Source of the DNA: Oscillospiraceae bacterium
Lineage (GTDB): Bacteria; Bacillota; Clostridia; Oscillospirales; Ruminococcaceae
DNA: 40,438 nucleotides
Direction of reading: 5' to 3'
Assembly (NCBI GenBank): GCA_021199795.1
Contig: JAJQHJ010000008.1
Span: 1 to 40,438, forward strand
The position numbers were made by a program, and so were the translations under genes. Positions within the stretch are counted from its first letter, which is position 1; every line of letters starts with the position of its first letter. The notes under the pieces are model-generated. The model had not been told where the DNA came from. It did no database searches and saw only the letters and a list, made by a program, of their open reading frames with translations. Positions 5,259 through 36,190 of this stretch are shown piece by piece.

Positions 5259-5288
5259 TTGTTGAGGGCAATCAGTTTGTGATACAAT
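5259..5288 (+). promoter_or_regulatory. Putative sigma-A promoter for the HD/ABC operon
   Basis: TTGTTG at 5259-5264 and TACAAT at 5283-5288 are separated by 18 bases. It lies directly downstream of a terminator and about 40 bases upstream of the HD gene. The -35 match is modest. Confidence 0.45.
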
Positions 5289-5327
5289 CAGGCTTGAAAA
5301 TAAGCGATTGAAATACGAGTGGTTATT

Positions 5328-5903: not shown

Positions 5904-5923
5904 CCGGGTTGGGAGAAGTAAAA

Positions 5924-6874: not shown

Positions 6875-6878
6875 GCTT

Positions 6879-6914
6879 TCGACTATTTATCAGTCGATTC
6901 GACTTATCAGTCGA
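6879..6914 (+). repeat. Two tandem TCGACT/AGTCGA stem-loops between ATPase and binding-protein genes
   Basis: TCGACT at 6879-6884 pairs with AGTCGA at 6892-6897 across a 7-base loop. A second copy, TCGACT at 6899-6904, pairs with AGTCGA at 6909-6914 across a 4-base loop. The copies also form a direct repeat (TATCAGTCGA twice). The second hairpin ends right at the ribosome binding site (GAGAAAGG) of the solute-binding protein. It may stabilise the downstream mRNA, control access to the binding site, or be an operator. The function is inferred only from position. Confidence 0.6.
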
Positions 6915-6927
6915 GAAAGGAAATGTT

Positions 6928-8016: not shown

Positions 8017-8051
8017 TCCCTAACTTAAAGTAGTCTATATAAAAAAGCGGT

Positions 8052-8087
8052 CGGCACCTTGTGAAGTTTAGATCTAGCAGGGTGCCG
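8052..8087 (+). other. Intergenic hairpin between binding-protein and permease genes
   Basis: Bases 8052-8062 pair with 8077-8087 in an 11-bp stem with two G-U pairs and a 14-base loop. No U-run follows, so it is not a good terminator. Such a structure between the binding-protein and permease genes of an importer commonly protects the upstream mRNA end and lowers downstream expression. That role is inferred here. Confidence 0.6.
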
Positions 8088-8113
8088 TGCCGATTTCGGA
8101 GGGAATCTGGAAA

Positions 8114-19049: not shown

Positions 19050-20216
19050 ATGGAGTTATTTACAGATAAAGAAAAATGCTGTGGTTGCCAAGCCTGTGTA
19101 GTAAGGTGTCCAAAATCAGCAATAAGTATGGTTGATGATAATGAAGGGTTCCTCTATCCGCGGATAAAGACAGCCATGTGTGTTGATTGTGGTATCTGCA
19201 AGAATGTATGTATGTTTCAGAACATAGCTTCCATTGAGTCGGTTAAGAATAAATTTATCCGTTGCTTTGCAGTTAAGCACAAGGACAAAGCTACACGAAT
19301 GGCGAGTCGATCAGGTGGAATTTTCACTGCGATAAGTGATCTCATCCTTGGTGCAGGGGGGGTACTTTATGGTGCGGTTTTATCACAATCACTGGAAGTT
19401 ATTCATGTTAGAGCCGAGAGCAAATTAGAAAGAAACCGGATGCGTGGTTCTAAATATGTGCAGTCCAGAACAGATAGTTCGATTTATATGCAAATAAAAA
19501 AAGATGTCGAAAATGGACGCACAGTTCTCTTTAGCGGGACTTCCTGCCAAGTAGCGGCGGTTAAAGGCTTGTTTAGAGAGATTCCAGATAATTTGCTACT
19601 CATGGATATAGTATGTCATGGCGTACCTAGTCCTCGTGTTTATCGCGATTATATAGAATGGTGGGAAAAGCGTGTTGGAACGATAGCAACTGGAATTGAT
19701 TTTAGGAATAAGGGGAACTTTGGCTGGTCTACCCATATCGAGTCAATGTATTTCGGTAAAATGAGAAAAGATTCCTGTGTTTACACAGATCTTTTCTATG
19801 GTCACAACACATTGCGTCCTTCCTGTTATTCTTGTCCGTATAAGGACATTAACCATCCAGGAGATATTACAATCGCGGATTATTGGGGGATTGATAATGC
19901 GGCTCCTGGATTTAATGATGATAAGGGTGTTTCGCTTGTTTTGATTAACAGTGCTAAAGGAGAAAGATATTTTTCGGAGGCGGTGAATGCTGGAAGTATT
20001 ATTTATCAGGAAACGGATATAGAAAAAAGTATGCAGCCTCCCCTCAAGGAATCATTTAAGTGCCCAGAAAGCAGGGAGACATTTTGGCTAGATTATGACA
20101 AGCTGGATTTTGATGGGACCATAAGAAAATATGCGCCGCACTCTAGAAGGACATACTTGAAATATAGGATTAAACAGATTCTTGTTGCCTTAAATCTATA
20201 TAAGATTAGGAGATGA
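19050..20216 (+). CDS. FrhB/FdhB-like iron-sulfur flavoprotein of polysaccharide loci
   Basis: The 388-aa protein has two N-terminal ferredoxin-type clusters (CCGCQACVVRCPKS and CVDCGICKNVC). A coenzyme F420 hydrogenase/dehydrogenase beta-subunit C-terminal domain follows, including ILGAGGVLYGAV, DIVCHGVPSP, and CPYKDINHPGDITIADYWG. In non-methanogens such proteins are frequently encoded beside polysaccharide pyruvyl transferases, and one lies downstream at 22334; the reaction is unproven. A seven-G tract at 19356-19362 codes for Gly-Gly-Val and is followed by TACT, the same pattern seen in the broken genes downstream. Here the frame is intact (ON). The gene precedes two tandem GT2 genes with only a four-base gap. 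Confidence 0.85.
   Translation: MELFTDKEKCCGCQACVVRCPKSAISMVDDNEGFLYPRIKTAMCVDCGICKNVCMFQNIASIESVKNKFIRCFAVKHKDKATRMASRSGGIFTAISDLILGAGGVLYGAVLSQSLEVIHVRAESKLERNRMRGSKYVQSRTDSSIYMQIKKDVENGRTVLFSGTSCQVAAVKGLFREIPDNLLLMDIVCHGVPSPRVYRDYIEWWEKRVGTIATGIDFRNKGNFGWSTHIESMYFGKMRKDSCVYTDLFYGHNTLRPSCYSCPYKDINHPGDITIADYWGIDNAAPGFNDDKGVSLVLINSAKGERYFSEAVNAGSIIYQETDIEKSMQPPLKESFKCPESRETFWLDYDKLDFDGTIRKYAPHSRRTYLKYRIKQILVALNLYKIRR
19356..19362 (+). repeat. Poly-G tract 1 (G7-TACT), frame intact
   Basis: Seven G residues are followed by TACTTTATGG inside the FrhB-like gene. With seven G the frame reads Gly-Gly-Val-Leu-Tyr-Gly, a conserved family motif. Gain or loss of one G would lead to a stop within about 25 codons. 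Confidence 0.7.
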
Positions 20217-20220
20217 AGAC

Positions 20221-21126
20221 GTGCCTGATCTGACAATAATCATCCTCACCAAGAATGAGGAGCAGAACTTAAAAAAATGCATAGACTCCTTTCACGGCGT
20301 AGCTAAAAGAATTGTTGTTGTGGATAGTTTCAGCACGGACAACACTGTGGCTCTTGCCAAAGAGCTGGGAGCCGATGTGTATGAGCACAAATTTGAGAAT
20401 CACGCTGCTCAGTTTAACTGGGCACTTGATAATATAAATCTCTCAACTGAGTGGGTTGCGAAAGTTGACGCTGATGAGGATTTCACACCGGAGCTCGCTC
20501 AGGAGATAGATGAGAAGCTGGACAATCTGCCAAAGAATGTGAATGGAGTTATTCTCCGGCGGCGTGTGTACTTTATGGGTCGTTGGCTGAAGCATGGTGG
20601 CAAGTACCCAGAGCTTCTTCTGCGGGTATTCCGTGTTGGTCATGGCATGTCCGAAATGAAGATGATGGATGAACATCTCATCGTTACAGATGGAGACGTG
20701 GTCACATTCGATCATGATTTCAGTGACAATAACCAAAAGTCATTAGAGTGGTGGGTTGGAAAGCATAACTGGTATAGCAATAAAGAAGTTTTGGATCAGC
20801 AGATGAAAGCCGAAAATTCAGGATCTGTTGAAGATACGGCAACATCCGCACAAGCCAAAGTAAAGAGGTTCATCAAAAACCATGGATACTATAGCCTGCC
20901 GAAGTTTTTCAGAGCTCATTTGTATTATTTTTATCGGTACTACATACGGCTAGGTTTCCTTGATGGTAAGGAAGGCAAGATATACACATTTCTGCAGGCT
21001 TACTGGTATCGATATCTAGTGGATGCCAAGCTCTACGAATGTGAGAAGTTGGGGATAAAGATGGAAGAGCAAGGAGAACTTAAAATAGAACCGGTCAGAA
21101 AGTCGGGGGGTAATAATTCTCTCTGA
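20221..21126 (+). CDS. GT2 glycosyltransferase (first of tandem pair)
   Basis: The 301-aa GT-A enzyme begins LTIIILTKNEEQNLKKC, the GT2 nucleotide-binding start. VVVDSFSTDNT follows and VAKVDADEDFTPE carries the metal-binding DxD-type motif. It resembles the WaaE/KdtX group of inverting GT2 enzymes. GTG 20221 follows TAGGAG. Its C-terminal codons cross a six-G run (21105-21110) followed by TAAT; indels there would only change the last few residues. The next gene encodes a close paralogue, indicating tandem duplication. Confidence 0.87.
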   Translation: MPDLTIIILTKNEEQNLKKCIDSFHGVAKRIVVVDSFSTDNTVALAKELGADVYEHKFENHAAQFNWALDNINLSTEWVAKVDADEDFTPELAQEIDEKLDNLPKNVNGVILRRRVYFMGRWLKHGGKYPELLLRVFRVGHGMSEMKMMDEHLIVTDGDVVTFDHDFSDNNQKSLEWWVGKHNWYSNKEVLDQQMKAENSGSVEDTATSAQAKVKRFIKNHGYYSLPKFFRAHLYYFYRYYIRLGFLDGKEGKIYTFLQAYWYRYLVDAKLYECEKLGIKMEEQGELKIEPVRKSGGNNSL

Positions 21127-21163
21127 CATGTTGCAAGTCATCTCTTAAGGAGGTGGCTGCATA

Positions 21164-22069
21164 ATGGTGGATTTAACCGTTGTAATACTAACGAAAAATG
21201 AAGAGAAGAATCTAAGAAAGTGCATTGAATCCTTTCGAGGAATTGCGAAACGGTTTGTCATCGTGGACAGTTATTCCACAGATGGAACAGAAGCTCTATG
21301 CCATGAATTGGATACTGAACTGCGGAAGATTGGCTCACAATTGGACTTTTATCAAAACACATGGGTTAGCTATGCCGACCAGTTGAACTGGGGATTACAG
21401 AATACACATGTCACCACAGAGTGGTCGATGAGGTTCGATTCCGATGAAGAGTTGATGGAAGACTTGGCAGCAGAGATTGAAGAGAAGCTGCCGACCATCA
21501 AGGAACCGGTCAACGGCATCATCCTCCGGCGTAGAGTCTACTTCATGGGTCGTTGGATCAAGCACGGTGGACGGTACCCAGAACTGCTTCTCCGCATTTT
21601 CAGGACAGGCAAAGCCTCATGCGAGCAGAAACTCATGGACGAGCATATGATTCTCTCGGAAAGAACGACCGTTACATTCCAGCACGACCTGATTGACAAC
21701 ATTCAGAAGGATCTGGAGTGGTGGACGGCGAAGCACAACTGGTACAGCAACCGGGAAGTTCTCGACCACCAGATGACTTTGAATAATCAGATGAACACCG
21801 CCCCTGAAGACGATGGTACTTCATCCGGACAAGCGAAGATAAAGCGTGTGGTCAAGAACAGTGGATACTACAGACTGCCGAAATTCTGGCGGGCGCATAT
21901 CTACTTCATATACAGATACTATATAAAACTTGGCTTCTTGGATGGACCGGAAGGAAGGGTATTTCACTTCCTGCAGGCATACTGGTATCGGTTCCTTGTG
22001 GATGCGAAATTGCTGGAATGCGAGAAGAAGGGCATTAAGATGAAGCCACAGGGAGATTTGAAAGCATAG
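21164..22069 (+). CDS. GT2 glycosyltransferase (second of tandem pair)
   Basis: This is also 301 aa and collinear with the preceding enzyme: LTVVILTKNEEKNLRKC, IVDSYSTDGT, MRFDSDEELMED, and the shared VYFMGRW and HNWYSN blocks. Insertions near residues 45-55 and 205-215 distinguish it. The two probably act on successive or alternative acceptors in the repeat unit. AAGGAGGTGG lies about 10 bases before the ATG at 21164. Its codon use is more GC-rich than that of the next genes. Confidence 0.87.
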   Translation: MVDLTVVILTKNEEKNLRKCIESFRGIAKRFVIVDSYSTDGTEALCHELDTELRKIGSQLDFYQNTWVSYADQLNWGLQNTHVTTEWSMRFDSDEELMEDLAAEIEEKLPTIKEPVNGIILRRRVYFMGRWIKHGGRYPELLLRIFRTGKASCEQKLMDEHMILSERTTVTFQHDLIDNIQKDLEWWTAKHNWYSNREVLDHQMTLNNQMNTAPEDDGTSSGQAKIKRVVKNSGYYRLPKFWRAHIYFIYRYYIKLGFLDGPEGRVFHFLQAYWYRFLVDAKLLECEKKGIKMKPQGDLKA

Positions 22070-22166
22070 GGAGTCTGGTTATGTTAAAAAAAGCTACTCT
22101 CAGATAGAACTAGAGATGATTTGTTATTAGAAGAGCATTCAACTTGGGAGTGTAGACAACGAAATT

Positions 22167-22313
22167 ATGTATGCTCCTACGCCGATGTTTAAACTGAGAG
22201 AAGTTCTGAAAGACTATCTGAAAAACGATCCTGCAGTGGTAAATAAGTGGGCTGGAATTTTCACAGCTCAGTTGGCTGTTCAAAAAATCAAAGCAAAAGT
22301 CGTAAGGAAATAA
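22167..22313 (+). other. Short open frame, probable gene fragment
   Basis: The 264-base gap between the second GT2 and the pyruvyl transferase holds a 48-codon frame starting MYAPTPMFKLREVLKDYL and ending AKVVRK. It has no ribosome binding site and overlaps no promoter. It reads like the tail of a lost gene but I cannot name the family. The rest of the gap shows nothing further. Confidence 0.35.
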
Positions 22314-22333
22314 ACAAAGAAGGAAAAGACAGA

Positions 22334-23383
22334 ATGAAAATAGCAACTATAACATTTGGATATAGTCAGAATCTTGGCGCATTGCTGCAGGCATATGCAT
22401 TAAGCGAATACATAGCTTCGCTAGGACATGAATGCAAAATAATCAAGTTCCGGGAGTTTGATCAAAGGCCATTTGAAACAATCAAGGGTATTCCTGACGC
22501 TTTGAGTGATATTGTATTTTACGGTGACTGCAAAAGAAAAATGAAGAAAATTAATGCATACAGGAACAATTTTCTTCCGTTTACCGATAAGTGCTATCCA
22601 TCTGCTGCGGATATGGATGAGCTAAATGAACAGTTTGATTGTTTTGTGGCAGGGAGCGACCAAATTTGGAATGTGCATAAAGGGATATTTGATGAGTTCT
22701 TTCTTTCGTTTGTCAACAAGGAAAAAAAGAAGATTGCATATGCCGCCAGTTTTGGTCTTACTAAAATACCAGAAGAATATGTAGACGGCGTAAAAGATGG
22801 GCTGGCACGTTTTGATGCAATTTCCATCAGAGAAGCATCTGGAGTTCAGCTTGCATATGAATTGACTGGTAATACATATCCTCAAACGGTAGATCCTGTT
22901 TTTCTTAAGCCCAGAAATGATTGGGAAGAACTGTGCAAGGAGAGAAAGGTAAAAGATAAATATATTTTTGTCTATCCAACACAGATTACTCCCTTGCTTA
23001 AGGAAACTGTTAAAAAAGCAAAGAAGGAATTGGGATGCAAGGTTTATTCACTCTTCTATTTTGTAGGAGTAGATAAGGTCGTCAAGGATGCAGACCCGTT
23101 GGATTTTGTAAATTATATTCGATATGCGGATTTGGTTATAGGATCGTCTTTTCATGCTACAGCATTCTCATTGATTTTTGAAAAGAACCTAAGAGTTATA
23201 CCACATAGTTCAACCGGTTCAAGGGTCGTTGACTTACTTAGTGAGTTAGGGTTGAAAGAAGTGTGTGTTGTGGAGAATAGTGAGAATGTTGAATTTAATC
23301 CGTTTTCTTACACGAATGCAAATTTGGAACTGAATGACATAGTAAATGATTCAAAAAGGTTTTTGACGCAAAATCTGAAATGA
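22334..23383 (+). CDS. Polysaccharide pyruvyl transferase family protein
   Basis: The 349-aa protein starts MKIATITFGYSQNLGALLQA, the N-terminal motif of the CsaB/WcaK pyruvyl transferase family. FVAGSDQIWN follows near residue 105 and VIGSSFHATAFSLIF near residue 270, where the His is catalytic in relatives. The enzymes transfer a pyruvyl ketal from phosphoenolpyruvate to a sugar. AAGGAAAAG precedes the ATG at 22334, and upstream in-frame codons lack a binding site. It pairs functionally with the FrhB-like protein at 19050, a combination common in polysaccharide loci. AT-rich codon use begins with this gene. Confidence 0.86.
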   Translation: MKIATITFGYSQNLGALLQAYALSEYIASLGHECKIIKFREFDQRPFETIKGIPDALSDIVFYGDCKRKMKKINAYRNNFLPFTDKCYPSAADMDELNEQFDCFVAGSDQIWNVHKGIFDEFFLSFVNKEKKKIAYAASFGLTKIPEEYVDGVKDGLARFDAISIREASGVQLAYELTGNTYPQTVDPVFLKPRNDWEELCKERKVKDKYIFVYPTQITPLLKETVKKAKKELGCKVYSLFYFVGVDKVVKDADPLDFVNYIRYADLVIGSSFHATAFSLIFEKNLRVIPHSSTGSRVVDLLSELGLKEVCVVENSENVEFNPFSYTNANLELNDIVNDSKRFLTQNLK

Positions 23384-23398
23384 GGCAGTCGATAGTAT

Positions 23399-24538
23399 AT
23401 GAAAAAGAAAAAAATATTATTTATTATGGGTAGGTATTTACCTGGGTATAGAACTGGTGGGCCGGTCAGATCGACGAAAAATTTGATTGACGCACTTGGT
23501 GATGAATATGATTTTCGTGTTTTGTGCCAAGATAGAGATCTTGGTGATAAAGAACAATATCCGGGAATTAAATTGAATGATTGGAATAAAGTCGGCAAGG
23601 CTTTGGTTTACTATGTTCCGGAAAAGACATTTTACAAAAATACTATAGTCAAGCTTTCAAAAGAAGTTGATGCTATTTATCTCTGGGGCTGTTTTGACTA
23701 CTATACGATCCGCACATTATGGCTTAGAAAAACAAATCAGATTAGGGTTCCGGTTATTGTTGCTGCTATGGGATTATTTTCTCCCAAAGCTTTTAGAATT
23801 AAATACTGGAAGAAAAAAACTGTAACCACAGCAATGAATGTGCTTGGTATGTTTAAGAATGTTTATTGGTCTGCAACTTCGGAGTTAGAAGTTTCTGAGA
23901 TTAGGCAGCAAATAAAAACTGATATTAGTAATTTTTATGTTGCAGAGGATCTTCCAAGATTTGTCGAAGACATAAATAATGAAACAGAAAAAGTAGTTGG
24001 TCAGTTATCTGTCGCTTGGATTTCAAGAATTGCACCAAAGAAGAACCTTTTGTATGCTATAGAAGTGTTAAAAAAAACACGTGCAAACATCTTTTTCACA
24101 ATATACGGTTCTATATTTGATGAAGAGTATTGGAAAAAGTGTTGTGATGAATTGGAAAAACTACCATCTAACATAAAGTGGGATTATAAAGGGGTTGTTG
24201 AATCCGAAGATGTAGTGGGTACGCTTAGACATCATAATGTTTTTCTGTTTCCTACATTAGGAGAGAATTATGGACATGTTATCCAGGAGGCGTTGTCGGC
24301 TGGTTTACCATGCATCATTAGTGATCAAACTCCTTGGAAAGATCTCGAAATATGTGGAGCTGGTAACGTGTTTGATTTAGAAAAAATTGATTGTTTTGTA
24401 GATTGCATTGAAAAATATGCAAGTATGGATTATAGAAGTTGGCGTAAGTGTTCCGATATAGCATTGAAATATGCAATCACAAAAAGCAATGGTCGGATAA
24501 ATAACAATGGGTATCGAAAGATGTTCGATAATATCTAG
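23399..24538 (+). CDS. GT4-like glycosyltransferase
   Basis: The 379-aa GT-B type protein has an N-terminal MGRYLPGYRTGGPVRST, whose glycine-rich loop contacts the acceptor or donor. VAWISRIAPKKNLLYAI opens the C-terminal donor domain, and FLFPTLGENYGHVIQEALS contains the conserved E-x7-E region for nucleotide-sugar binding. AIEVLKKTRANIFFTIYG lies between. It is a retaining transferase of unknown sugar. TGAGGCAG precedes the start. It is strongly AT-rich, like its neighbours, and unlike the GT2 pair upstream. Confidence 0.85.
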   Translation: MKKKKILFIMGRYLPGYRTGGPVRSTKNLIDALGDEYDFRVLCQDRDLGDKEQYPGIKLNDWNKVGKALVYYVPEKTFYKNTIVKLSKEVDAIYLWGCFDYYTIRTLWLRKTNQIRVPVIVAAMGLFSPKAFRIKYWKKKTVTTAMNVLGMFKNVYWSATSELEVSEIRQQIKTDISNFYVAEDLPRFVEDINNETEKVVGQLSVAWISRIAPKKNLLYAIEVLKKTRANIFFTIYGSIFDEEYWKKCCDELEKLPSNIKWDYKGVVESEDVVGTLRHHNVFLFPTLGENYGHVIQEALSAGLPCIISDQTPWKDLEICGAGNVFDLEKIDCFVDCIEKYASMDYRSWRKCSDIALKYAITKSNGRINNNGYRKMFDNI

Positions 24539-24612
24539 TTGATCATAATTAATGTAAAAGAATAAAAATGAGAGTTATTTATTGATTGATTTTGCAGCTA
24601 TATTAGCTGGAT

Positions 24613-24965
24613 GATATTGACTTCCTGACAGATGTTGAGTATCTAGAAGAAGTCGAAGAAGGCGGCGTTGAAAATAATAATAAGTAGCTTAAATATCACA
24701 GCGATGAACCTGAGATACTGCTAAACAATCCTAGATACCATTTGCTTTATAAGGGTGTGAAGATTATCTCACTCACTTGAAGAATTTTCAGTTTGGAAGA
24801 GTAGGAAGGGCACGAAGAAGGATTTTGGAAGACGTAAAGCTTATTGTAGGTTTTAATTCGAAGAAATTAACGGACGTAGCATATAGAAGAAAGATGTTGA
24901 TTAAACGAGAAGCTAAAGTAATAGTATATAATCTATATAGATATCTGCTTCACTTAAAGAAATAG
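24613..24965 (+). pseudogene. Decayed gene remnant
   Basis: A readable sequence starts DIDFLTDVEYLEEVEEGG, is interrupted by a TAG near 24686, resumes LKYHSDEPEILLNNPRYHLLYKGVKI, stops again just before 24777, and continues one frame over as LKNFQFGRVGRARRRILEDV to the stop at 24965. Together this is about 110 residues broken by a stop and a frameshift, so it is a degraded gene. The style is like small accessory proteins of capsule loci, but I cannot name the family with confidence. No other gene lies in this 470-base stretch. Confidence 0.6.
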
Positions 24966-25015
24966 TAATCTGCTACAAAGAAATCGAGCTATATTACAGT
25001 TTAGAGGTGTCAATT

Positions 25016-26146
25016 GTGAGAGTGTTGTATTTGAATAACTTTATGTCTGCTGATATGGTAAAGAAAAGAGACTGCTATGAATTTTATTCACAAGCGGCTA
25101 ACAATAAAATCACAGGAATTCTATGTTCACTTCTCGATACTGATAACGATGTAACAATCTTATCTAGCGGACTTACAAACCATAAAAGTGGTAAGTTGTA
25201 CAAAAGTGAACATGAGGAGTATTTGGGTGCTGATGTTATTTATTGTGCTGTCCGTGATTTTCCACTTATAAATACTATTAGTTCAATATTACATATTTAT
25301 AAGGAAATTAAACGACAAGACTTAAAAAAGAAAGTGGATCACATTATTTTCTATAACTATAAACCGGAAGTGGCATGGGCAGCATATCTTGCAAAAAAGA
25401 GACTTCATATTCCCATAACAGTTGAATATGAAGATGGTTATTCAAGAGTGTCTGACCTCAGAGGGTTAAAGTCCACAATTTTTAGGAAAACAGAGGATTT
25501 CGTATCAGAACATGTAGATTATGCAATTTTAGTTAATTCTCAACTGATCGGAAAGTATCATGTGCCTTCGGTTACGGTAAGGGGAGTTGTTGATAAGGAT
25601 TTCTATACCAGATGTCGAGAATATAGAAAACCACGTAATGAAAAGTTTACAATTCTTTATTCTGGAGGGCTGAATAAAACAAGAGGGATTGATGTACTGA
25701 TAGAAACGGTTTCAATGCTTGAGGTTGATTGTAGGTTGGTCATTACGGGGAAAGGCTCATTAAATGTAGATGATAGCAGGATTGATTTTAGGGGGTTTGT
25801 TTCACATGAGGAAATGCAAAATTTAATGATGCAAGCAGATGTATTGGTGCAGTGCCAGTTGACGAATGACAAATTTTCTGAATCATCATTTCCTTCTAAA
25901 TTATTTGAATACATTGCAACGGGAAATAGTATTATTTCATCTGATTTGCCAGAGATTGTCGATTTTGCTGGAGAGGCTATTAAGTATTATCATAATGATG
26001 ATCCTAGCGATCTTGCTGCTAGGCTTTATGAAGTATTTATGCATTGGAAAACAGCAGAAACTGAAAACAGTAATCTCAGGTTACTGTGCGATGCTAACCT
26101 ACCTGAAAATGTTGGGAAGAAAATTACCACCATGTGGTTGCAATAG
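25016..26146 (+). CDS. GT4-like glycosyltransferase
   Basis: The 376-aa protein has a short N-terminal acceptor domain (VEYEDGYSRVSDL in the interdomain region) and a GT4 donor domain starting TILYSGGLNKTRGIDVLIE. VITGKGSL follows and SSFPSKLFEYIATGNSIISSDLPEI carries the conserved Glu pair. The start was set to GTG 25016, which has AGAGG at 25003-25007; a GTG at 25007 overlaps that site. It is AT-rich and is followed by a gene fragment. The acceptor and sugar are unknown. Confidence 0.83.
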   Translation: MRVLYLNNFMSADMVKKRDCYEFYSQAANNKITGILCSLLDTDNDVTILSSGLTNHKSGKLYKSEHEEYLGADVIYCAVRDFPLINTISSILHIYKEIKRQDLKKKVDHIIFYNYKPEVAWAAYLAKKRLHIPITVEYEDGYSRVSDLRGLKSTIFRKTEDFVSEHVDYAILVNSQLIGKYHVPSVTVRGVVDKDFYTRCREYRKPRNEKFTILYSGGLNKTRGIDVLIETVSMLEVDCRLVITGKGSLNVDDSRIDFRGFVSHEEMQNLMMQADVLVQCQLTNDKFSESSFPSKLFEYIATGNSIISSDLPEIVDFAGEAIKYYHNDDPSDLAARLYEVFMHWKTAETENSNLRLLCDANLPENVGKKITTMWLQ

Positions 26147-26171
26147 AGATCAAAATCTGAAAGATACTACA

Positions 26172-26260
26172 TTAAAATATTAGGATACAAATGGATACGC
26201 ATATTATTAAGAGCCAAAGGTGGAGTATATGATATTGCTGGTCTGTTTATTAAGCAATAG
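26172..26260 (+). other. Gene-tail fragment
   Basis: Between the GT4 gene and the acetyltransferase, a frame ending at the TAG 26258-26260 reads YKWIRILLRAKGGVYDIAG and then LFIKQ. It has no start or ribosome site and looks like the last about 28 codons of a deleted gene. Nothing else is seen in this 190-base gap. Confidence 0.3.
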
Positions 26261-26337
26261 AAAAACATTGCATTAAAACCTTCCTTTAATTTTATGAGAA
26301 TAGGTGATAATCCACTGTGGCAGTATTGAGGTGAATC

Positions 26338-27027
26338 ATGAGCAAGTTAAAAAAAATAGCCAAGAGACTTTTGCTATATAAAAGAGTAAAGAAAACAAAG
26401 TCCAGGATTGTTTCCTTAATGCATATGGAAGATGTTGAAATCGAAGGGCACAATTCTATAGGTGCAAATTGTCGTTTTAACTCAGTGCGTATGGGAATGT
26501 ATTCATACGTTGCCGGTGAATGCTTTTTTTCGCATACTAGGATTGGGCGGTTTTGCTCAATAGGTTCTAATGTTCGTATTGCCACGGGCGCACATCCGAC
26601 CAGTTCTTTTGTGTCGACTCACCCAGTTTTTTATGATGTTGATACTGCGGTGGGAAAGGGCTTTGTTAAAAATAATAAATTTGAAGAGTACAAATACACT
26701 GACAAAAGTAAAAAAGTATTGCTTGATATAGGCAATGATGTTTGGGTAGCAAGTAATGCTTTATTTGTTGACGGGATTACTGTAGGAGATGGGGCGGTTA
26801 TTGCTGCAGGTTCAATTGTCACTCATGATGTGCCACCGTATGCCGTAGTTGCTGGTGTTCCAGCAAGGGTTATTAAATATAGGTTTACTGATGACGATAT
26901 AGATTTTCTCCAAAAATTAAAATGGTGGGATCAACCTTTGGAATGGATTCAAGAACATGCGGAGTTGTTTTCAAATGTTGATGATCTAAGGGAGGTAGTA
27001 GAATATGATGGGGAGAAAAGAGTATAA
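26338..27027 (+). CDS. Hexapeptide-repeat acetyltransferase (CatB/VatD-like)
   Basis: The 229-aa protein shows left-handed beta-helix hexapeptide repeats (IGANCRFNSVRMG, IGRFCSIGSNVRIATG). The xenobiotic/virginiamycin acetyltransferase-type segment GAHPTSSFVSTHP contains the catalytic-type His. A long loop and more repeats (IGNDVWVASNALFVDG, VGDGAVIAAGSIVTHDVP) precede the VVAGVPARVI end motif. It would transfer an acetyl group from acetyl-CoA to a sugar hydroxyl or amine in the repeat unit. The stop overlaps the start of the next gene by 23 bases, so the two are coupled. Confidence 0.85.
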   Translation: MSKLKKIAKRLLLYKRVKKTKSRIVSLMHMEDVEIEGHNSIGANCRFNSVRMGMYSYVAGECFFSHTRIGRFCSIGSNVRIATGAHPTSSFVSTHPVFYDVDTAVGKGFVKNNKFEEYKYTDKSKKVLLDIGNDVWVASNALFVDGITVGDGAVIAAGSIVTHDVPPYAVVAGVPARVIKYRFTDDDIDFLQKLKWWDQPLEWIQEHAELFSNVDDLREVVEYDGEKRV

Positions 27028-27868: not shown

Positions 27869-27879
27869 AGAGGAGTAGC

Positions 27880-29088
27880 ATGAAGATAACTGTAGATCGT
27901 GGGCGAATCAATTTCTTGAAGCGTGTGTTATTGTACTTTGTGATACTGTTTCCCCTATGTCCTGTGAATGGGCTATATAAAATAAGTTGGATTAGCAGTA
28001 TTTATTCTGCAGGCGCAATTATCGAAATTGTTGTAATCATTTTTTTGCTTGGCATTAGAAAGTTTAGGGCAAGTAATAGTACAATTATATTTTTTGCCTT
28101 TTCAGTTTGGTTAGCAATGACTTCTTTTATTAATGGCAGTTCATTCTCGACATATGAATTATTCTTAACAGCACGCATTATTGCGTTTTTGTATGTATCA
28201 GATTACCTTATTGCTCAAGACAGCAAATGCTATTTGCTTACAATATCTTTTCCAATGCTCATTGCTGTCTGCTTTAATATAAATGATGTATTGTCCACTG
28301 AATCAATAATTGCAGGAATTGATTTATATACTAAAACCAATCAGGAGTATTTTCTAGCTTCAGATAATTTTATGGGGTATTATTTTGTTCCTTTGATGAC
28401 AGTAATAATTTTGTATTCAGTCTTGAAATTTGGAAAAGTTACTTTTATTTCATGGTTTGCTGCAATTATTCCTGTTATTAACATGGTTTTAGTTTGGAGT
28501 GGAACCGGCGTATTTGGCTGCTTTTTATTCTTGGCTTTGCTGATAGTCTGCCTGGTTGCAACACATGTCTCTGGATTGAGGTGTCCATTTACTGTAAATC
28601 GATTGATTTGGATATATATAGCTGTATTTGTTATTCTAGTGGTTCTTCAAGGAACCGACGTATTTTCGTTCATTACTGTCGGTATACTTCACAAGACTTC
28701 GACATTAACCGGAAGAACTGATCGATGGGCGGCAGCTCTTCAAGAAATATTTAACTCACCGTATACAGCTTTGTTTGGACATGGGGGATCTTCTGGCGGA
28801 CGTTATATTATATCTTCTGTTAATGATGCAGCGCACAACTTAATGCTTGATATAACCCTTCAATCTGGTTTAATTGGTGTTGGATTATTTATTGCTACTT
28901 TTTTGAGCGGGTTAAAGAAGTTGAGGTATCACCAGGATTCTTTAATCGGACAGATCGTGTTAATAGGCATATTTGCTCAATTTGTTATGTATCTAAGCGA
29001 AGGCAATTTCTTGACGAACACATATCAATATTGCCTGCTCCCGATGATTGGGATAGTCACGAATAACTGCCAAGTAGACAATCAATAA
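27880..29088 (+). CDS. wzy: O-antigen/capsule polymerase (Wzy-like)
   Basis: The 402-aa protein is highly hydrophobic with about ten to twelve predicted membrane helices and a large external loop before TGRTDRWAAALQEIFNSPYT, the Wzy/WaaL-type signature. GHGGSSGGR and AHNLMLDITLQSGLIG then contain the conserved H-N segment. It would join lipid-linked repeat units outside the membrane. GAGGAG precedes the ATG at 27880. The symbol is assigned by topology and motif, not by close homology. Confidence 0.8.
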   Translation: MKITVDRGRINFLKRVLLYFVILFPLCPVNGLYKISWISSIYSAGAIIEIVVIIFLLGIRKFRASNSTIIFFAFSVWLAMTSFINGSSFSTYELFLTARIIAFLYVSDYLIAQDSKCYLLTISFPMLIAVCFNINDVLSTESIIAGIDLYTKTNQEYFLASDNFMGYYFVPLMTVIILYSVLKFGKVTFISWFAAIIPVINMVLVWSGTGVFGCFLFLALLIVCLVATHVSGLRCPFTVNRLIWIYIAVFVILVVLQGTDVFSFITVGILHKTSTLTGRTDRWAAALQEIFNSPYTALFGHGGSSGGRYIISSVNDAAHNLMLDITLQSGLIGVGLFIATFLSGLKKLRYHQDSLIGQIVLIGIFAQFVMYLSEGNFLTNTYQYCLLPMIGIVTNNCQVDNQ

Positions 29089-29143
29089 ACGATATTATAG
29101 TACTATTTTAAAACGAATATTAAATGTAAAGGAAGGAATACAT

Positions 29144-30013
29144 ATGTACAAAAAACCTTTTGTAATCGCAGAAGCAGGATGTAACCACATGGGTCAAATG
29201 GAGGTTGCTAAGGATTTGATTGAGACAGCTGCACACTTTTGCAAGGCAGATGCCATCAAGTTCCAGAAGCGTTGCCCGAAGGAACTTCTCACACCTGAGC
29301 AGTATAATGCTCCTCATCCGAATCCGGCAAACTCATATGGCAAGACATATGGCGAACATCGTGAGTTTTTGGAGTTTACCGTTGAGCAGCATGCACAGCT
29401 GAAAGAGTGGTGTGAGGAAGCTGGCATCATCTATTCCACATCTGTTTGGGATATGACCAGTGCAAAAGAAATAGCATCCTTGAATCCTGTGTTCATCAAG
29501 ATTCCGTCTGCTTGCAACACTCACTTTGAGATGCTCCAGTGGCTGTGTGACAATTATGGTGGAGAGATTCAGCTTTCTTTTGGCATGACAAGTCACGAGG
29601 AAGAAGAGCAGATTGTTCAGCTGTTCGAGAAGAATGGTCGTGCGAAAGACCTTGTTTTGTTTAACTGCACTTCTGGCTACCCTGTGCCGTTTGAGGATGT
29701 TTGCTTGCTTGAAATCAACCGTATGCGTGAAGCTTATGAGAGTCGTGTAAAGGCTATCGGATTCTCCGGACATCACCTTGGCATTGCTGTTGATGTTGCC
29801 GCTTACACACTTGGAGCTGATGTTATTGAGCGTCATTACACACTCGACAGGACTTGGAAGGGAACCGATCACGCTGCATCTTTGGAGCCGGATGGAATCC
29901 GTAAGCTGGTGCGTAATCTGAATGCTGTACACGAAGCACTCACATACAAGCCGTCTGAGATTCTTCCGATTGAGCAGGTTCAGAGGGACAAGCTGAAATA
30001 TAGGAAGCACTAA
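29144..30013 (+). CDS. neuB: Nonulosonic-acid synthase (NeuB-like) lacking the SAF domain
   Basis: The 289-aa TIM-barrel enzyme begins FVIAEAGCNHMGQMEVAKDL, the NeuB signature, with KFQKRCPKELL and IKIPSACNTHFEML further on. GFSGHHLGIAVDVAAYTLGA, then ERHYTLDRTWKGTDHAASL follow. These segments bind phosphoenolpyruvate, metal and the mannose-type sugar. Ordinary bacterial NeuB proteins are about 340-350 aa with a C-terminal antifreeze/SAF domain; here that domain is absent and the sequence ends after LKYRKH. Short synthases of this kind that work with a phosphatase are known for 9-phosphate pathways (sialic acid or KDN). Good AAGGAAGG ribosome site. The gene is more GC-rich than Wzy. Confidence 0.85.
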   Translation: MYKKPFVIAEAGCNHMGQMEVAKDLIETAAHFCKADAIKFQKRCPKELLTPEQYNAPHPNPANSYGKTYGEHREFLEFTVEQHAQLKEWCEEAGIIYSTSVWDMTSAKEIASLNPVFIKIPSACNTHFEMLQWLCDNYGGEIQLSFGMTSHEEEEQIVQLFEKNGRAKDLVLFNCTSGYPVPFEDVCLLEINRMREAYESRVKAIGFSGHHLGIAVDVAAYTLGADVIERHYTLDRTWKGTDHAASLEPDGIRKLVRNLNAVHEALTYKPSEILPIEQVQRDKLKYRKH

Positions 30014-30161
30014 TGGTGTTTTTATACCAAATGCGTAGGAGAGCTGAATTGTCGCGTGTGAGAAGAATTGAATAGGCATCTATTTATCTTCATTCCGGCA
30101 GTTCTGTTTTCTTTCCAGGAGTCTCTAACATCAGTTATGTATACAGGAGATCTGATCCGGT

Positions 30162-31206
30162 ATGAGGACATATAGTACATGTAGATATGACATAAACAAT
30201 ATAGTGACTGGAAGCAGTACTGAAAGATCACACACTATTGACTTTGTAAAAGGGCTTCTAATTGTTCTGGTTATTGTAGGACATATTTTACCAGGAGCAT
30301 TGGACGAGTCATTAGCACGTTGGATTATTTATAGCTTTCATATGCCACTTTTTATGACTGTCTCAGGTTATTTAGTCAAAAGGGAGAAGTTAAAAGAAAT
30401 CTCGTGGGGCAAATTCATCTTGAAATATCTACGACGAATTGTTGTTCCCTGGACTATTGCTGTCCTGTTTTTCTATAGTATAGGATGTAACGGCACTTAT
30501 TCTATAAAGGCGTTGTTATCTGCTTTTATAACTCCATATTATCATCTATGGTTTGTTGTTGCGTACTGCGGATTTATGGTACTGACCAAACTTGTAAGTG
30601 TGGGGGGGGTACTACGTACTAACGATTTCAGCTGTTTTATGTGCTGTGCTAAAATACCTCGACCTTTGTGATATTACGTTTGGATTACAAGTTTTAGAGA
30701 TACTTCAGTATACAGTGCGTCCGTATTTGTTTTTCTTCTTCTTTCTTGGATATATGCTACGAAACGGAGGACCGGCAAATAGAGATGAAAATCGCAAAAA
30801 CAAGCTGCATTTTTGGTTTTATAAAAGAGAAACACGCATAGCAACAGTGATACTTCTGATTGCATCTATCGTGATTGAGATAGCAGTATTCTTTAGCACT
30901 AATCATGTGGTCGAAACGGTTAACTACTATTTGCTCAATATATGTTTAGCTGGTATAGTTATTCAGCTTTTCAGCTCAAGACATGAAATTAAAAACAGGT
31001 TTTTGGAGTATATTGGAAAGAACTCACTTCCAATATATTTATGGCATGTGATTGTAATCCTTGTGGTTAAAAAGTGTTTCGGCAATGAGTATGGGGTGGC
31101 ATATTATGTGATAAGTGTACTTATGTTTATGCTGTTCCTGCTGGCAATTTACGGATTGAATAGACTCTCTTTTGTAAGAAAATACATCTTTGGCAACAGA
31201 GAATAA
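30162..31206 (+). CDS. Acyltransferase-3 family membrane protein, OFF by poly-G frameshift
   Basis: The first frame begins HTIDFVKGLLIVLVIVGHI and contains YSFHMPLFMTVSGYLVKRE, the acyltransferase-3 (OafA/WecH-like) motifs with the catalytic His. It runs to YYHLWFVVAYCGF, then meets eight G at 30602-30609 and stops at 30671. The second frame resumes at once as GYYVLTISAVLCAV and continues through more membrane helices, including LPIYLWHVIVILVV, to 31206. Removing one G gives one continuous 347-aa protein with about ten helices. Family members acetylate or acylate surface sugars. As sequenced the gene is OFF. The start has a weak ribosome site. Confidence 0.85.
30602..30609 (+). repeat. Poly-G tract 2 (G8-TACT) in acyltransferase gene
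   Basis: Eight G residues follow AAGTGT and precede TACTACGTACT. Reading frames on each side differ by one base. Seven (or ten) G restores the acyltransferase; the present eight truncates it. Confidence 0.85.
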
Positions 31207-31221
31207 TGAGGAGAATACATT

Positions 31222-32397
31222 ATGAACGTAGCTTTTATTCCGGTAAGAGGCGGAAGTAAATCAATACCTCTGAAAAATATTAAGCCGATTTGTGGGAAAC
31301 CGCTTGTTTACTGGACAGTGAAAGCCGCTTGCCAGTGCAAATATATTGATGTTGTCTATATCGCTACAGACAGCGATAAGATTAAAGATACTGTCGAAGA
31401 GTTCAAGCACGGTGATGAAGCGGACACTTTCTCTAAGGCTCAGGTTATCGGAAGAAGTGCGGAGTCTGCCTCTGATACAGCTTCCACAGAGTTTGCTATG
31501 CTTGAGTTCGCAGAGAAATACGAGTTCGACAACATCGTGCTTGTTCAGGCTACCTCTCCTATGTTGACCGCTGCTGATTTAGATGGTGGCTTTGAGCTGT
31601 TTAACAGTGAAGGAACGGATTCTGTCCTCTCGGTTGTTCGTCAGTACAGGTTCCTGTGGGATAGAGACGAGAACGGAAACGTAAATCCGAGCAATTATGA
31701 TGTTTTCCATCGTCCTCGCCGTCAGGAGTTTGACGGGTATTTGATGGAGAACGGTGCTTTTTATATTTCTTCAAAATCGGATTTGATCAAGTACCAGAAC
31801 AGGGTTTCTGGCAACATCAAAGCCTATGAGATGTGTGAGGGCAGTGCATTTGAGATTGACGAACCAAGCGACTGGATCATCATTGAAGCTCTCATGCGTA
31901 AGAACGGACTTGTAGAAGAGAAGAAGTCCATTCCTGAAATCAAGATGTTCTTGACTGACTGTGACGGTTGTCTGACCGATGGCGGAATGTACTATTCTGA
32001 GCACGGAGACGAGTTAAAGAAATTCAATACCAGGGATGGTATGGGATTTGCGTTACTTCGTGCAAATGGCATAATTACAGGCATCGTTACTTCGGAATCT
32101 GTTGACCTTAACAGAAGGCGAGCCGAGAAACTCAAACTTGATGTTCTTGAAGCTGGATGCAGGGACAAGGTAGTAGCCGTGAAGAGACTGTGCGATAAAT
32201 ACAATATTGCGCCTGAAAACGTTGCTTATGTTGGGGATGACATAAACGATATCGATGTCATTAAAATGGTAGGTTTTGGATGTGTTCCCGCGAATGCTAT
32301 GCCGCAAGTAAAGTCAGCTGCTGATTACGTGACTAAGGCTAAGGGCGGAGAAGGAGTTATCAGAGAGGTTGTTGAGAGACTGTTAGAATGCAATTAA
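31222..32397 (+). CDS. neuA: CMP-nonulosonate synthetase fused to HAD phosphatase
   Basis: The 391-aa protein has two domains. Residues 1 to about 225 are a CMP-sialic acid/KDO synthetase: FIPVRGGSKSIPLKNI, LVQATSPMLTAADLDG, and FDGYLMENGAFYISSK. Residues about 235-391 are a KdsC-like HAD phosphatase: MFLTDCDGCLTDGGMYYSE holds the Asp nucleophile pair, then VTSESVDLNRRRAEKL, and YVGDDINDIDVIKM holds the metal-binding Asps. The same fusion order occurs in animal CMAS, and bacterial homologues act in 9-phosphate nonulosonate pathways. Together with the short NeuB it should make and activate a nonulosonic acid. GAGGAG precedes the ATG at 31222. Confidence 0.88.
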   Translation: MNVAFIPVRGGSKSIPLKNIKPICGKPLVYWTVKAACQCKYIDVVYIATDSDKIKDTVEEFKHGDEADTFSKAQVIGRSAESASDTASTEFAMLEFAEKYEFDNIVLVQATSPMLTAADLDGGFELFNSEGTDSVLSVVRQYRFLWDRDENGNVNPSNYDVFHRPRRQEFDGYLMENGAFYISSKSDLIKYQNRVSGNIKAYEMCEGSAFEIDEPSDWIIIEALMRKNGLVEEKKSIPEIKMFLTDCDGCLTDGGMYYSEHGDELKKFNTRDGMGFALLRANGIITGIVTSESVDLNRRRAEKLKLDVLEAGCRDKVVAVKRLCDKYNIAPENVAYVGDDINDIDVIKMVGFGCVPANAMPQVKSAADYVTKAKGGEGVIREVVERLLECN

Positions 32398-32410
32398 GAG
32401 GTCAGTTGCT

Positions 32411-33733
32411 ATGAATGGTGAAGCTAAAAAGATAGTATCAAATACTTTATGGATGATATTTGATAAGGTGTTTATCCTAGTTCTGAATCTGCTTGTGACA
32501 GTTAGAATAGCAAACTATTTTGGCAGTTCCGAATATGGAAATTATCAGTACGCAGTAAGCATAGTCGCAATTTTAGAGATAATTGTAACTTTCGTAGATG
32601 CAAGGGTAGTTAAAAAGAGGTATGTCACTGTTGATTCTGATCTACTCGTTTTTAATGCAACCATCTGCAGGGCAATTTTTTCAGCCATAGCTTTTTTAGT
32701 AGGCATTATATACATTATAATTGCAAACCGTGGTGAACAGTTTTCAATAGTTCTAATCGTATTGCTATTTAATGCAATAATTTCAAATCTTAGATTTGGA
32801 ATGACAAATCGATTTGAATATTTGCTTAAATCTAAGAAGACAGTCATTGCAGCTGATATTTCATCAGCTCTAAGCTCTGTATTACAACTTATTGCTGTTT
32901 CATTTGAGTGTTCAATTGTAGCCATTTCGATAATTGCTCTTATATCTTCGGTTGTAAATTTGACGATTATAACGATACAATATAGGGTAGAGTTCAAATC
33001 TGAAGGCAAGAATCATTTTGATAAGCAGTTAGTTGCAGAAATGATTAAAGAAAGTCTTCCGTTAGCTATAGCGGCTTCTTGTGCGACATTATACACACGT
33101 TGTGATTCGGTAATGCTGGGCGCATTAATGACTACTGCAGAGGTTGGCATTTATTCGATTTCTGTAAAGCTAATATCAGTTGTTCAAATAGCATTAGCAC
33201 CGATCAGAGAATCTGTTTATCCAAAATTAATACAACTGCATTCTAATAATCTGAAGGAATATGAAAAAATGTATGTGCAGATTTCTAGCTTGATGACATG
33301 GATATATATCGTTGGGGTATTATTCTCTTATGTTGTTTTGCCGTTTGCATTTACGCTTTTAAATGAGGAATATGCAGAAGCATATCCCGTTTTCCAAATT
33401 CATGTTCTAGGAACATTCTTTATGTATAATGCTGCACTCAGAGCGGGACATTTTACTTTGATTAATCGAGGGAAAATATTGACTTACTCACAGATTGTTA
33501 GCGTTATAGCTAATATAATATTGAATTACGTTGGAATTACAATGTTTGGAATGTATGGCGCAGCAATAGCCACAGTATTGACGCAGGCTATTTCGCTGTT
33601 CTTCTCAAATCTATTCTTTGGAAAGGATGGCAGAGAGGTATTTTGGTGGCAAGTCAAGGCGTTAAATCCGATGTATGCTATACAGTTACTGAAGTCTGGT
33701 TCGTTCCCGAAAGCTCGAAGCAAAAAGCAATAA
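32411..33733 (+). CDS. wzx: Repeat-unit flippase (Wzx-like)
   Basis: The 440-aa protein has about twelve to fourteen hydrophobic helices of the polysaccharide biosynthesis/MATE-like superfamily. The start is typical (KKIVSNTLWMIFDKVFILVLNLL), and YFGSSEYGNYQYAVSIVA and TRCDSVMLGALMTTAEVGIYS are the usual loop motifs. It would move the finished undecaprenyl-linked unit across the membrane before polymerisation by Wzy (27880). It begins 13 bases after the NeuA-HAD stop, so the cluster for lipid-linked export is contiguous. It is AT-rich. Confidence 0.86.
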   Translation: MNGEAKKIVSNTLWMIFDKVFILVLNLLVTVRIANYFGSSEYGNYQYAVSIVAILEIIVTFVDARVVKKRYVTVDSDLLVFNATICRAIFSAIAFLVGIIYIIIANRGEQFSIVLIVLLFNAIISNLRFGMTNRFEYLLKSKKTVIAADISSALSSVLQLIAVSFECSIVAISIIALISSVVNLTIITIQYRVEFKSEGKNHFDKQLVAEMIKESLPLAIAASCATLYTRCDSVMLGALMTTAEVGIYSISVKLISVVQIALAPIRESVYPKLIQLHSNNLKEYEKMYVQISSLMTWIYIVGVLFSYVVLPFAFTLLNEEYAEAYPVFQIHVLGTFFMYNAALRAGHFTLINRGKILTYSQIVSVIANIILNYVGITMFGMYGAAIATVLTQAISLFFSNLFFGKDGREVFWWQVKALNPMYAIQLLKSGSFPKARSKKQ

Positions 33734-33953
33734 CATAAAAATAGGAAAATGTAGAATTTGGAGAACAATGAAGCGATCACACCAACCCTAGAGTAAGTTC
33801 TACGTAGTTAGTCTTTGGAAAGTGGAACCATCATATATAAAACAATACATTATTATAAAGGCATTTTTGCTAACTTGACGTTGTGTGATTGAATTACATT
33901 GTTTTGCATGTTACATAAACAATAGGGACAAAATGGTATACTGAGGTGAAAAA

Positions 33954-34975
33954 ATGGGGCAAGCAATGAATGTACAACATAAATCACGATTGATTTGGCT
34001 CGATCTACTAAAAGGCTTTTGTATGATTCTAATAGTAATAAGTCATGTCTCTAATCGTGCAGATATTTATGGAAGGTTGTATACTCCTATCTTTTTAAGC
34101 GCGTTTTTCTTTGCATCAGGCTATACTTTTAAACCAAGGGGTAGTTTTACAGAGTTTTTAAAAAATAAGATCGTTTCATTAGGTATTCCATTTGTATGTC
34201 TAGGACTAATTAATGCTTGTTTGGCTGTTGTAATTGAGAGGGATTTAATCGTTGATCGCCTGAAATATTTGGCATCTTTCCGAGGCGTATGGGATGATTT
34301 GTGGTTTATAGCTTGCTTGTTTTCAATGCAGTTTATTTTATACGGCATTTATAAATTATCATTAGCTATAGTTGGAGCCCGACGAGATAATGGAATCTTT
34401 ATACTTATAACGTCGTTTATGTTATCTGTTATTTCCTACATGGTAGTTAAGACGACTGGAATCTCTTTGCCACTTCAATTTGAATCAGCTTGTGTGGGCA
34501 TCTTTTCCATGGCTCTTGGTTATTTCTATAAAGTCAATGAAAATAAGATTGATAATATCGTAATGCGAGTGAGGGGGGGTACTGGCTTGGTATAATATAT
34601 ATTCTTTTATGCTTATTTATTGACAATGCTGTCTCAATACACAATATCCAATATCAGTCGTTATTATTGTACCATTTTGAAAGTATAGTGGGTCTTTCGG
34701 CATTGGTTTCATTTTGCAAAAAATTAAGCCACTGTGTAAATACGAGAGTTCTTGCTCCTATTATTTTTATTGGACAGAATACACTTGTTTATTACGCATT
34801 TCAATCGAAAGGAATAAAGGTGTTTGAGTTGATTTTTGATAAAATCGGAATTACGTTAAATTCATATATATTACCCTTACTAATAGCATTACTGGTATGT
34901 CTTTGCCTTACTTTGCCTTCCTATATCATAAGCAGGTGGCTACCTTTCTTGCTGGGAAAGAGAAAATATAAATAA
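33954..34975 (+). CDS. Second acyltransferase-3 family protein, OFF by poly-G frameshift
   Basis: The first frame starts RLIWLDLLKGFCMILIVISH and has TPIFLSAFFFASGYTF, both acyltransferase-3 motifs, and LWFIACLFSMQF. It meets seven G at 34573-34579 and stops at 34593-34595. The second frame continues without a start as GYWLGIIYILLCLFID and then LAPIIFIGQNTLVYYAFQSK, the usual C-terminal block, to 34975. One added G gives a 340-aa complete protein. GAGGTG lies five bases before the ATG at 33954. The 220-base gap upstream may hold a promoter but no convincing pair was found. It probably decorates the polysaccharide. Confidence 0.84.
34573..34579 (+). repeat. Poly-G tract 3 (G7-TACT) in second acyltransferase gene
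   Basis: Seven G residues follow GCGAGTGA and precede TACTGGCTTGG. Eight (or five) G would join the two halves of the gene; seven gives a stop four codons later. Confidence 0.85.
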
Positions 34976-34994
34976 ATATGTAGGAGCAATCAAT

Positions 34995-36190
34995 ATGTCC
35001 AAACATCACCATCACATGAGAGCGTGGGGGGGGGTACTACTCGCTCCGCTCGTAGAAACAACATCATTCTGATAATCGCGTCCCTGATTCTGATAGTAAT
35101 ACTGGGAGCGATGTTTTATCAGTATAAAATTAACGAAAACGCTCAGTCCGCCTATTTGCAAGGTGTTCAAGAAGAACAAGAGGCAGAACGAATAGCCAAA
35201 CAGGAAGCCGAAGCAGCAGCGGAAGAGGCTGCCGAGCTTGCCTTGCAGGAAGATACGGAGAGTTCAAGCTTTTATCAAAAGCTTTCCAAAGGCTATGATG
35301 TCAACATTCTGATTGTCGGTGATTCCATTGGAGCGACTTCTGGAGCCAGCGCGACAGAGTACAGATGGACAACACTGCTTGATTCTTATCTGACCGAGCA
35401 ATATGGCAGTAATGTCACCATTACAAATGTCTCAATGGGTGGCAATGCCTCTTATGCCGGTTACAGCCGTGTGATGATGCTTGATGATGGCACTGATTAT
35501 GACCTGTCGATTATCTGCTATGGGCAGAACGACTCCACCACAGATTTTTCGTTATACTATGAGACTATAATCCGTGCCATAAGCAGTAAGTACGAAAAGT
35601 GTTCGATAATCTCGATTCTTGAATCTTCGCAAAAGACTTATACCGAAAAGATGGTGACAATACAAGAAATCTGCGATTACTATGGTATACCAATCGCAGA
35701 TACGATTGCGCCTTTCTCGGAAAATTATGATTCTTACACCGATGACAGTGTTCATCCTAATGATGCAGGACAGGCTATTTATGCTGAGACAGTCGAATCT
35801 GTCATAGACAACATGGTAGAAGCAGACACTGGCTTTAATGACTACAATCTTACTCCAATCAACGTCGGTGCCACTGCCTTTGATAACTTCCGTTATATCT
35901 CCGCCGATGAATTTGAACGCACAGACGAAGTAACCTACACGATTACAGGACTATCAATTTCGGGCATTCTAGGAATAGATTACAGCTATCAGAGTGGTGA
36001 TAATCTGACTGAAATTTATGTTGATGGCGAACTTTTTGTTGCCCCGACAGTCACGTTCAATTATGATTTCTCGCAGAGGCATATACTGATTGTCAGCAAT
36101 GATTTCACTGTTGAAAACGAGATCAAAATTGTATTTTCAAGCTCAGAGCTTGCTGATGAATTTAATGGCATAATTTTCAGTTGGGAATAG
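34995..36190 (+). CDS. Membrane-anchored SGNH/GDSL hydrolase, OFF by poly-G frameshift at its start
   Basis: ATG 34995 has AGGAG at 34982-34986 and encodes MSKHHHHMRAW, then nine G (35026-35034) throw the frame off and it stops at 35070. The long frame starts beyond the tract: a membrane anchor (IILIIASLILIVILGAMFYQ), a short coiled Ala/Glu stretch, then a SGNH domain with ILIVGDSIGATSG (Ser), MGGNASY (Asn context), ICYGQNDS and DDSVHPN (Asp-His). Ten (or seven) G would give a 398-aa protein from ATG 34995. SGNH enzymes in such loci deacetylate or transfer acetyl groups on polysaccharide. A GTG inside the tract (35024) might allow weak expression. Confidence 0.85.
35026..35034 (+). repeat. 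Poly-G tract 4 (G9-TACT) in SGNH hydrolase gene
   Basis: Nine G residues follow AGAGCGT and precede TACTACTCG, only 31 bases after the ribosome-site-supported ATG. Ten or seven G puts that ATG in frame with the hydrolase; nine does not. Confidence 0.85.

Follow-up and report, generated by a model that had tools for sequence, protein, structure and literature searches.

Poly-G tracts in a shared sequence frame as candidate contingency loci in genes, promoters and leaders of one Ruminococcaceae lineage

Why should every long poly-G run in a clostridial polysaccharide locus, whether in an acyltransferase, a hydrolase or an FrhB-type gene, be followed by the same four bases? The question is raised by a 40,438-nucleotide stretch of an Oscillospiraceae bacterium of the family Ruminococcaceae (assembly GCA_021199795.1, contig JAJQHJ010000008.1), the whole of which is called the window here. 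On the usual view of homopolymer phase variation the tract alone is enough, and a frame shared across genes, promoters and leaders is not expected of ordinary slippage sites. From comparisons of sequence within and beyond this genome, we propose that such tracts are probably lineage-specific, genome-wide poly-G contingency loci that would switch genes, each held in a fixed frame acting at the DNA level. In the openly licensed literature we found no paper that joins phase variation with a poly-G tract and Ruminococcus, or a simple sequence repeat with Ruminococcaceae, and none that contains the motif strings.

On both strands the window holds exactly four G-runs of seven or more, at 19356 (G7), 30602 (G8), 34573 (G7) and 35026 (G9), each continuing with TACT as the original prediction had stated: for GGGGGGTACT in the window, 4 of 4 such runs are followed by TACT where 0.02 are expected by chance, and 0 of 100 shuffles reach four. 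The tracts and the open reading frames (ORFs) around them are as follows.

19050-20216, + strand: open FrhB-type ORF of 388 amino acids, containing tract 1
19356..19362, + strand: tract 1, G7 then TACT, inside the open FrhB-type ORF, with GCA upstream and a Gly-Gly-Val motif; a doubtful member
30162..30671, + strand: front-part Acyl_transf_3 ORF of the tract 2 gene, Pfam profile 3-139
30598..31206, + strand: back-part Acyl_transf_3 ORF of the tract 2 gene, Pfam profile 151-325
30602..30609, + strand: tract 2, TGT-G8-TACT, at the frame break in the Acyl_transf_3 gene
33954..34595, + strand: front-part Acyl_transf_3 ORF of the tract 3 gene, Pfam profile 2-197, its stop just past tract 3
34573..34579, + strand: tract 3, TGA-G7-TACT, near the end of the truncated Acyl_transf_3 ORF
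34667..34975, + strand: 102-amino-acid ORF behind tract 3, with no Pfam match of its own
35026..35034, + strand: tract 4, CGT-G9-TACT, between the likely start ATG 34995 and the GDSL-hydrolase body, which is in a different frame
35024..36190, + strand: SGNH/GDSL hydrolase ORF, open in a frame other than that of ATG 34995

Pfam matches and ORF frames place tracts 2, 3 and 4 at broken frames and bear out the targets named earlier, namely two Acyl_transf_3 genes, a GDSL hydrolase and an FrhB-type ORF; by eye, a ribosome-binding site stands ahead of ATG 34995. The bases before these three tracts (AGTGT, AGTGA and AGCGT) all fit the AGYGW that had been read there. Tract 1 had been counted as a clear member of the set, a standing it loses here: several FrhB-like homologues have GGVVYG-like motifs at its position using other glycine codons, the second glycine is missing in some, and one homologue (L342, genome G029) has TGT-G7-TAC at the same motif. 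Protein selection on the conserved Gly-Gly motif accounts for much of tract 1, because several homologues keep the motif with other glycine codons.

The search of the genome and its congeners that the original prediction had called for supports the set and redraws its flank. Across the 2.16 Mb of the genome there are 6 copies of G7TACT and none of the reversed pattern, and the 22 runs of at least seven Gs continue with TACT (6), TAAC (6), TAGT (5) and, once each, TATA, TACA, ATAG, AACT and ATCA. As TAAC and TAGT are about equally frequent, TACT is ruled out as the specific signal it had been taken for: it is the small-sample form of a wider rule, in which TA is followed by C, A or G. Nor does AGYGW hold as a general upstream flank, the consensus frame being roughly [G/T][T/C]G[T/C]-G(6-10)-TA[C/A/G][not G].

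How closely this frame goes with run length was compared in the same genome and eight congeners, taking all runs with no flank required beforehand, provided that they lay at least 60 (upstream) or 110 (downstream) bases from the locus end, in surroundings free of N and with a G+C content of at most 0.62, each counted once. The congener runs number at least 196 in the eight genomes; G020 is represented in part and G029 by none, so that both are under-represented. GY before the run together with TA after it is found in 7 of 1428 G4 runs, 2 of 218 G5 runs, 4 of 17 G6 runs and 104 of 142 runs of seven or more. By context, under rule-based classes that are not annotated genes, the flank marks 28 of the 43 long runs in coding sequence, 39 of 45 in leaders, 13 of 17 in promoters, 21 of 32 in other places and 3 of 5 that are antisense; tract 3 of the window falls into the promoter class by regular expression in one classification and into coding sequence in the flank-information analysis. 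Within coding sequence the contrast with G4 and G5 runs (2/693) is very strong (p=2e-37), and the information lies mainly at positions -4 to +4, with a fainter contribution as far as about +8; outside the shared flank, further conservation is peculiar to leaders and promoters. Runs in or near ORFs favour the sense strand, 43:5 for seven or more Gs vs 613:463 for G4. The base after TA is mostly C in coding sequence (26/43) and mostly A or G in promoters (14/17); since one of the frames would read TAA or TAG as a stop, TACT appears to be the variant of the flank that suits genes. The recurrence of the flank in coding, promoter and leader contexts agrees with the multi-gene, apparently phase-variable set first proposed, and takes it beyond the capsule locus to which it had been confined, secreted-protein leaders and promoters carrying flanked runs as well. 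The claim that the flank is conserved as DNA whatever the reading frame holds genome-wide and is doubtful at tract 1, with its Gly-Gly-Val-type motif.

The excess has a sharp onset and a narrow distribution. Among 31 congeners, which include the window's own genome and in which forward plus reverse counts are set against a reversed-pattern control, TGY-Gn-TA occurs 110:116 at n=5, 65:2 at n=6, 85:0 at n=7 and 17:0 at n=8. Eleven motif-rich genomes (G000, G001, G002, G006, G009, G014, G020, G025, G027, G029 and G030) supply 57, 78 and 16 of the occurrences at n=6, 7 and 8, and at n=5 the same eleven give 34 vs 44 reversed. G7TACT itself stands at 63 vs 2 reversed in the 31 congeners and at 4 vs 5 in 29 genomes from elsewhere in the family and order, and in 242 further genomes of the class TGYG7TAV is no commoner than its reversal (8 vs 10 reversed). 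The element thus starts at six Gs and, among the genomes sampled, belongs to one lineage. Reversed-pattern controls and the window runs thus place these tracts far beyond chance in genes and control regions, as is looked for in simple-sequence contingency loci. The window's genome is richer in n=8 than the other ten (n=8 vs n<=7, 5:4 against 11:131; Fisher p=0.0007). As a side observation, long frames that resemble, by eye, GGDEF/EAL proteins (L062 and L065; genomes G007 and G023) have G10- and G8-TACT runs at their front.

Tract length differs at sites that are otherwise alike. Sites grouped by similar flanks form 28 groups, of which two are at n=5 and three come from genomes other than the eleven, and length differs in 17 of the 28; in three pairs with identical 25+25 flanking bases it is 7 vs 6. 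Such differences at alike sites fit slippage.

What would the changes alter? At the coding level, the gain or loss of Gs by slippage would break or keep the frame of surface-polysaccharide and other genes. Thirty ORFs or pieces with tracts were scanned: their Pfam families include Acyl_transf_3, several glycosyltransferase families, TupA-like ATP-grasp, WecG and Stealth, with further matches to a TPP enzyme, an N6/N4 DNA methylase (L235), a PD-(D/E)XK protein and a secreted-repeat protein, and 3 of the 30 have no Pfam match. In L262:5213 the Acyl_transf_3 profile is split at the tract into 2-160 and 189-326, and in L190:8767 into 2-262 and, just below the cut-off, 268-325, both resembling the split at tract 2 of the window. 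The methylase gene (L235:764-2707; G027:C13) carries an in-frame TGT-G7-TAC and is possibly phase-variable.

At the promoter level, a change in length would move the -35 and -10 boxes closer together or further apart. Thirty G-runs have an upstream TTGAC and a -10-like box, with spacers of 14 (5 cases), 15 (13), 16 (3), 17 (3), 18 (1), 19 (1) and 20 (4) bases, so that the 17-bp spacing occurs in only 3 of 30; the set contains many copies of one type and a few promoters from outside the lineage. Good boxes at poor spacing are compatible with a spacer switch, and the off-optimum spacers, like the profile breaks at coding tracts, would fit an effect of length on expression through spacing or frame. 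Behind G-tract promoters lies a multi-copy family of ~77-amino-acid proteins (Myb/SANT-like by eye, with no Pfam result; among its loci L193:13982-14212, L189:3662-3889, L316, L213, L227 and L230), whose genes in L189 and L316 follow two tandem G-tract promoters. Its 40 matches fall in 5 of the 31 congeners (G001, G009, G020, G027 and G029) and none in the window's genome, a distribution that rules the protein out as the machinery. Separately, two contigs of Spirochaetaceae metagenome-assembled genomes (L131:7352; L142:1094, minus strand) have G9 runs just behind TTGAC boxes and followed by TA, which resemble poly-G promoter spacers in another phylum.

At the leader level, in the 5' leaders of secreted proteins, length would decide whether the G-run can sequester CCUCC, one arm of a hairpin that resembles a terminator. 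Fifty-nine leader candidates were found, of which 55 were folded (three low-complexity and one atypical being set apart) and 38 aligned. Their layout is a G-run, a hairpin, CCC and then CCTCC...GGAGG, often with a T-run after it; many of the tracts continue as GTAG or GTAAC before the hairpin, and the ORF that follows often starts, by eye, with a signal-peptide-like stretch. When the fold is computed before the 3' arm is made, the probability that the G-run holds CCUCC is 0.30, 0.32, 0.59 and 0.80 at 5, 6, 7 and 8 Gs, and leaders with shuffled middles, which keep base content only, give the flatter curve 0.54, 0.58, 0.67 and 0.73; at both 5 and 6 Gs, 44 of the 55 native leaders fall below their shuffled counterparts, and at 8 Gs 13 of the 55 do. 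The model predicts a leader switch between 6 and 8 Gs. A known riboswitch is ruled out, since Rfam 15 returned, for 10 leader loci at E<=1, a single sub-threshold match (miR-430, E=0.43) that we take as chance.

Around the tracts, the window has an AbiH-type ORF (Pfam AbiH, abortive infection; 16398-16946) just upstream of the polysaccharide locus and, at 29144-32397, a NeuB-type synthase with a cytidylyltransferase fused to a HAD domain, a pair that suggests a nonulosonic-acid sugar in the polysaccharide. The transporter region at 5225-9772 has 87% DNA identity to two other metagenome-assembled genomes, and the alignment ends near tRNA-His 9885, perhaps at the edge of an island; the Rfam scan of the window returned one tRNA only.

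What all three levels have in common is the frame, which could set the rate of slippage, set the limits of tract length or serve as a recognition site. Because protein, promoter and RNA function leave it unexplained, the frame most likely acts on DNA itself, and we best read it as a DNA-level determinant indifferent to reading frame, promoter or RNA context.

Several observations weigh against poly-G contingency loci held in such a frame. The flank is absent from 38 of 142 long runs, and its GY part is absent at tracts 1 and 3 of the window itself. The length variation is one between species and paralogues, not within a strain. No candidate factor reading the flank was found. Once the leader is complete, the terminator hairpin prevails whatever the number of Gs (mean 0.95 at 3 Gs, 0.74 at 11), which leaves antitermination unsupported as the stable end state, and covariation is slight (two-sided changes in 4 of 10 pairs); for both reasons the leader switch remains a prediction. 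Finally, MutS1 is above cut-off in all but one of the 31 congeners, namely G022, an 84% complete genome outside the eleven; in G001 it takes the form of two adjacent overlapping pieces (G001:C48:49999-52538). Loss of mismatch repair is thereby ruled out as the cause of slippage: with MutS1 in all eleven motif-rich genomes, easy slippage through absent repair is not the reason.

The more specific version of a DNA-level role, which we put forward tentatively and would not expect to hold in preference to the general one, is that a dedicated factor specific to this lineage recognises the flank and directs changes in length to runs of G6-G10; it might be a nuclease, a polymerase accessory or a blocker of mismatch repair. 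Were this true, the editing of the runs would be the work of a machine and not of passive slippage, and the flank would be a portable address able to make any gene, promoter or leader phase-variable.

It is unlikely that these are ordinary poly-G slippage loci whose flank is a role-less by-product of shared ancestry among leaders and promoters. Leaders and promoters do form groups with alike flanks, the leaders align, many G-run promoters precede one small protein family, and the poly-G contingency loci of C. jejuni are reported to need no flank (PMC4965091). Against this, unrelated coding families carry the flank at the rate given above, and in the flanked Acyl_transf_3 genes, with the preceding stop as the origin of the count, the tract stands at codons 1, 3, 41, 55, 192, 294 and 325, seven different positions that are therefore not copies of one site.

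Less probable still is a protein-binding regulatory site at which length differences are incidental: the site is compact, conserved, lineage-restricted and present in promoters and leaders, but many copies lie deep in coding sequence on the sense strand, frames are broken, and lengths vary at identical flanks.

We give very little credence to a small mobile element carrying the G-run. Repetitive extragenic palindromic (REP) elements, which are mobilised by Y1 transposases of the RAYT kind, combine a GTAG tetranucleotide with a hairpin, and the many leader tracts with GTAG or GTAAC and then a hairpin are like them; unlike them, the promoter tracts and most coding tracts share the flank with no such hairpin evident by eye, for which reason a REP-like element was set aside, and conservation at coding tracts fades within a few bases of the run. 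Among 12 open ORFs running through a tract that were checked for insertions, a lineage homologue lacking the run was available in one case (L235 vs L204) and aligned free of gaps, and the FrhB homologues have at most small gaps near the tract; alignable homologues thus contain no large insertion, and the entry of a ready-made element into genes is rejected for these cases, which are too few to generalise. Homopolymer sequencing or assembly error, with true lengths that give intact genes and no switch, is scarcely credible either, for although all the data are draft assemblies, errors cannot make one flank across genes, promoters and leaders, an onset at six Gs or a restriction to one lineage, and most runs are exactly 7 long (108/141).

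A short DNA frame common to unrelated genes, promoters and leaders, in a lineage that keeps MutS1, allows a direct test of whether cells can steer slippage to particular sites. An uncultured lineage also gains mapped candidate surface switches, which bear on resistance to phages and interaction with hosts.

To our knowledge Campylobacter jejuni is without MutS1-type repair; the present lineage differs from it in having MutS1 and a fixed flank common to genes, promoters and leaders. The two are alike in having tens of G-runs of at least seven per genome, many in surface genes: the C. jejuni study describes 29 loci in strain NCTC11168 with G-runs of at least seven that shift frame by slippage, many of them surface genes, and reports flanking sequence to be without influence on slippage in the polymerase chain reaction (PMC4965091). 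The leaders recall Bacillus subtilis pyrG, where RNA polymerase adds Gs at the start site under pyrimidine starvation and an RNA G-run is able to prevent the leader terminator (PMC4448216); unlike the untemplated Gs of pyrG, the run here is encoded in DNA and, by eye, follows promoter-like boxes at a distance of some tens of bases. The promoter tracts, lastly, are like that of Neisseria meningitidis porA, a promoter G-run that alters expression level (PMC3639595), with the difference that here the same flank recurs in promoters, leaders and genes by the dozen, and does so in a Gram-positive lineage.

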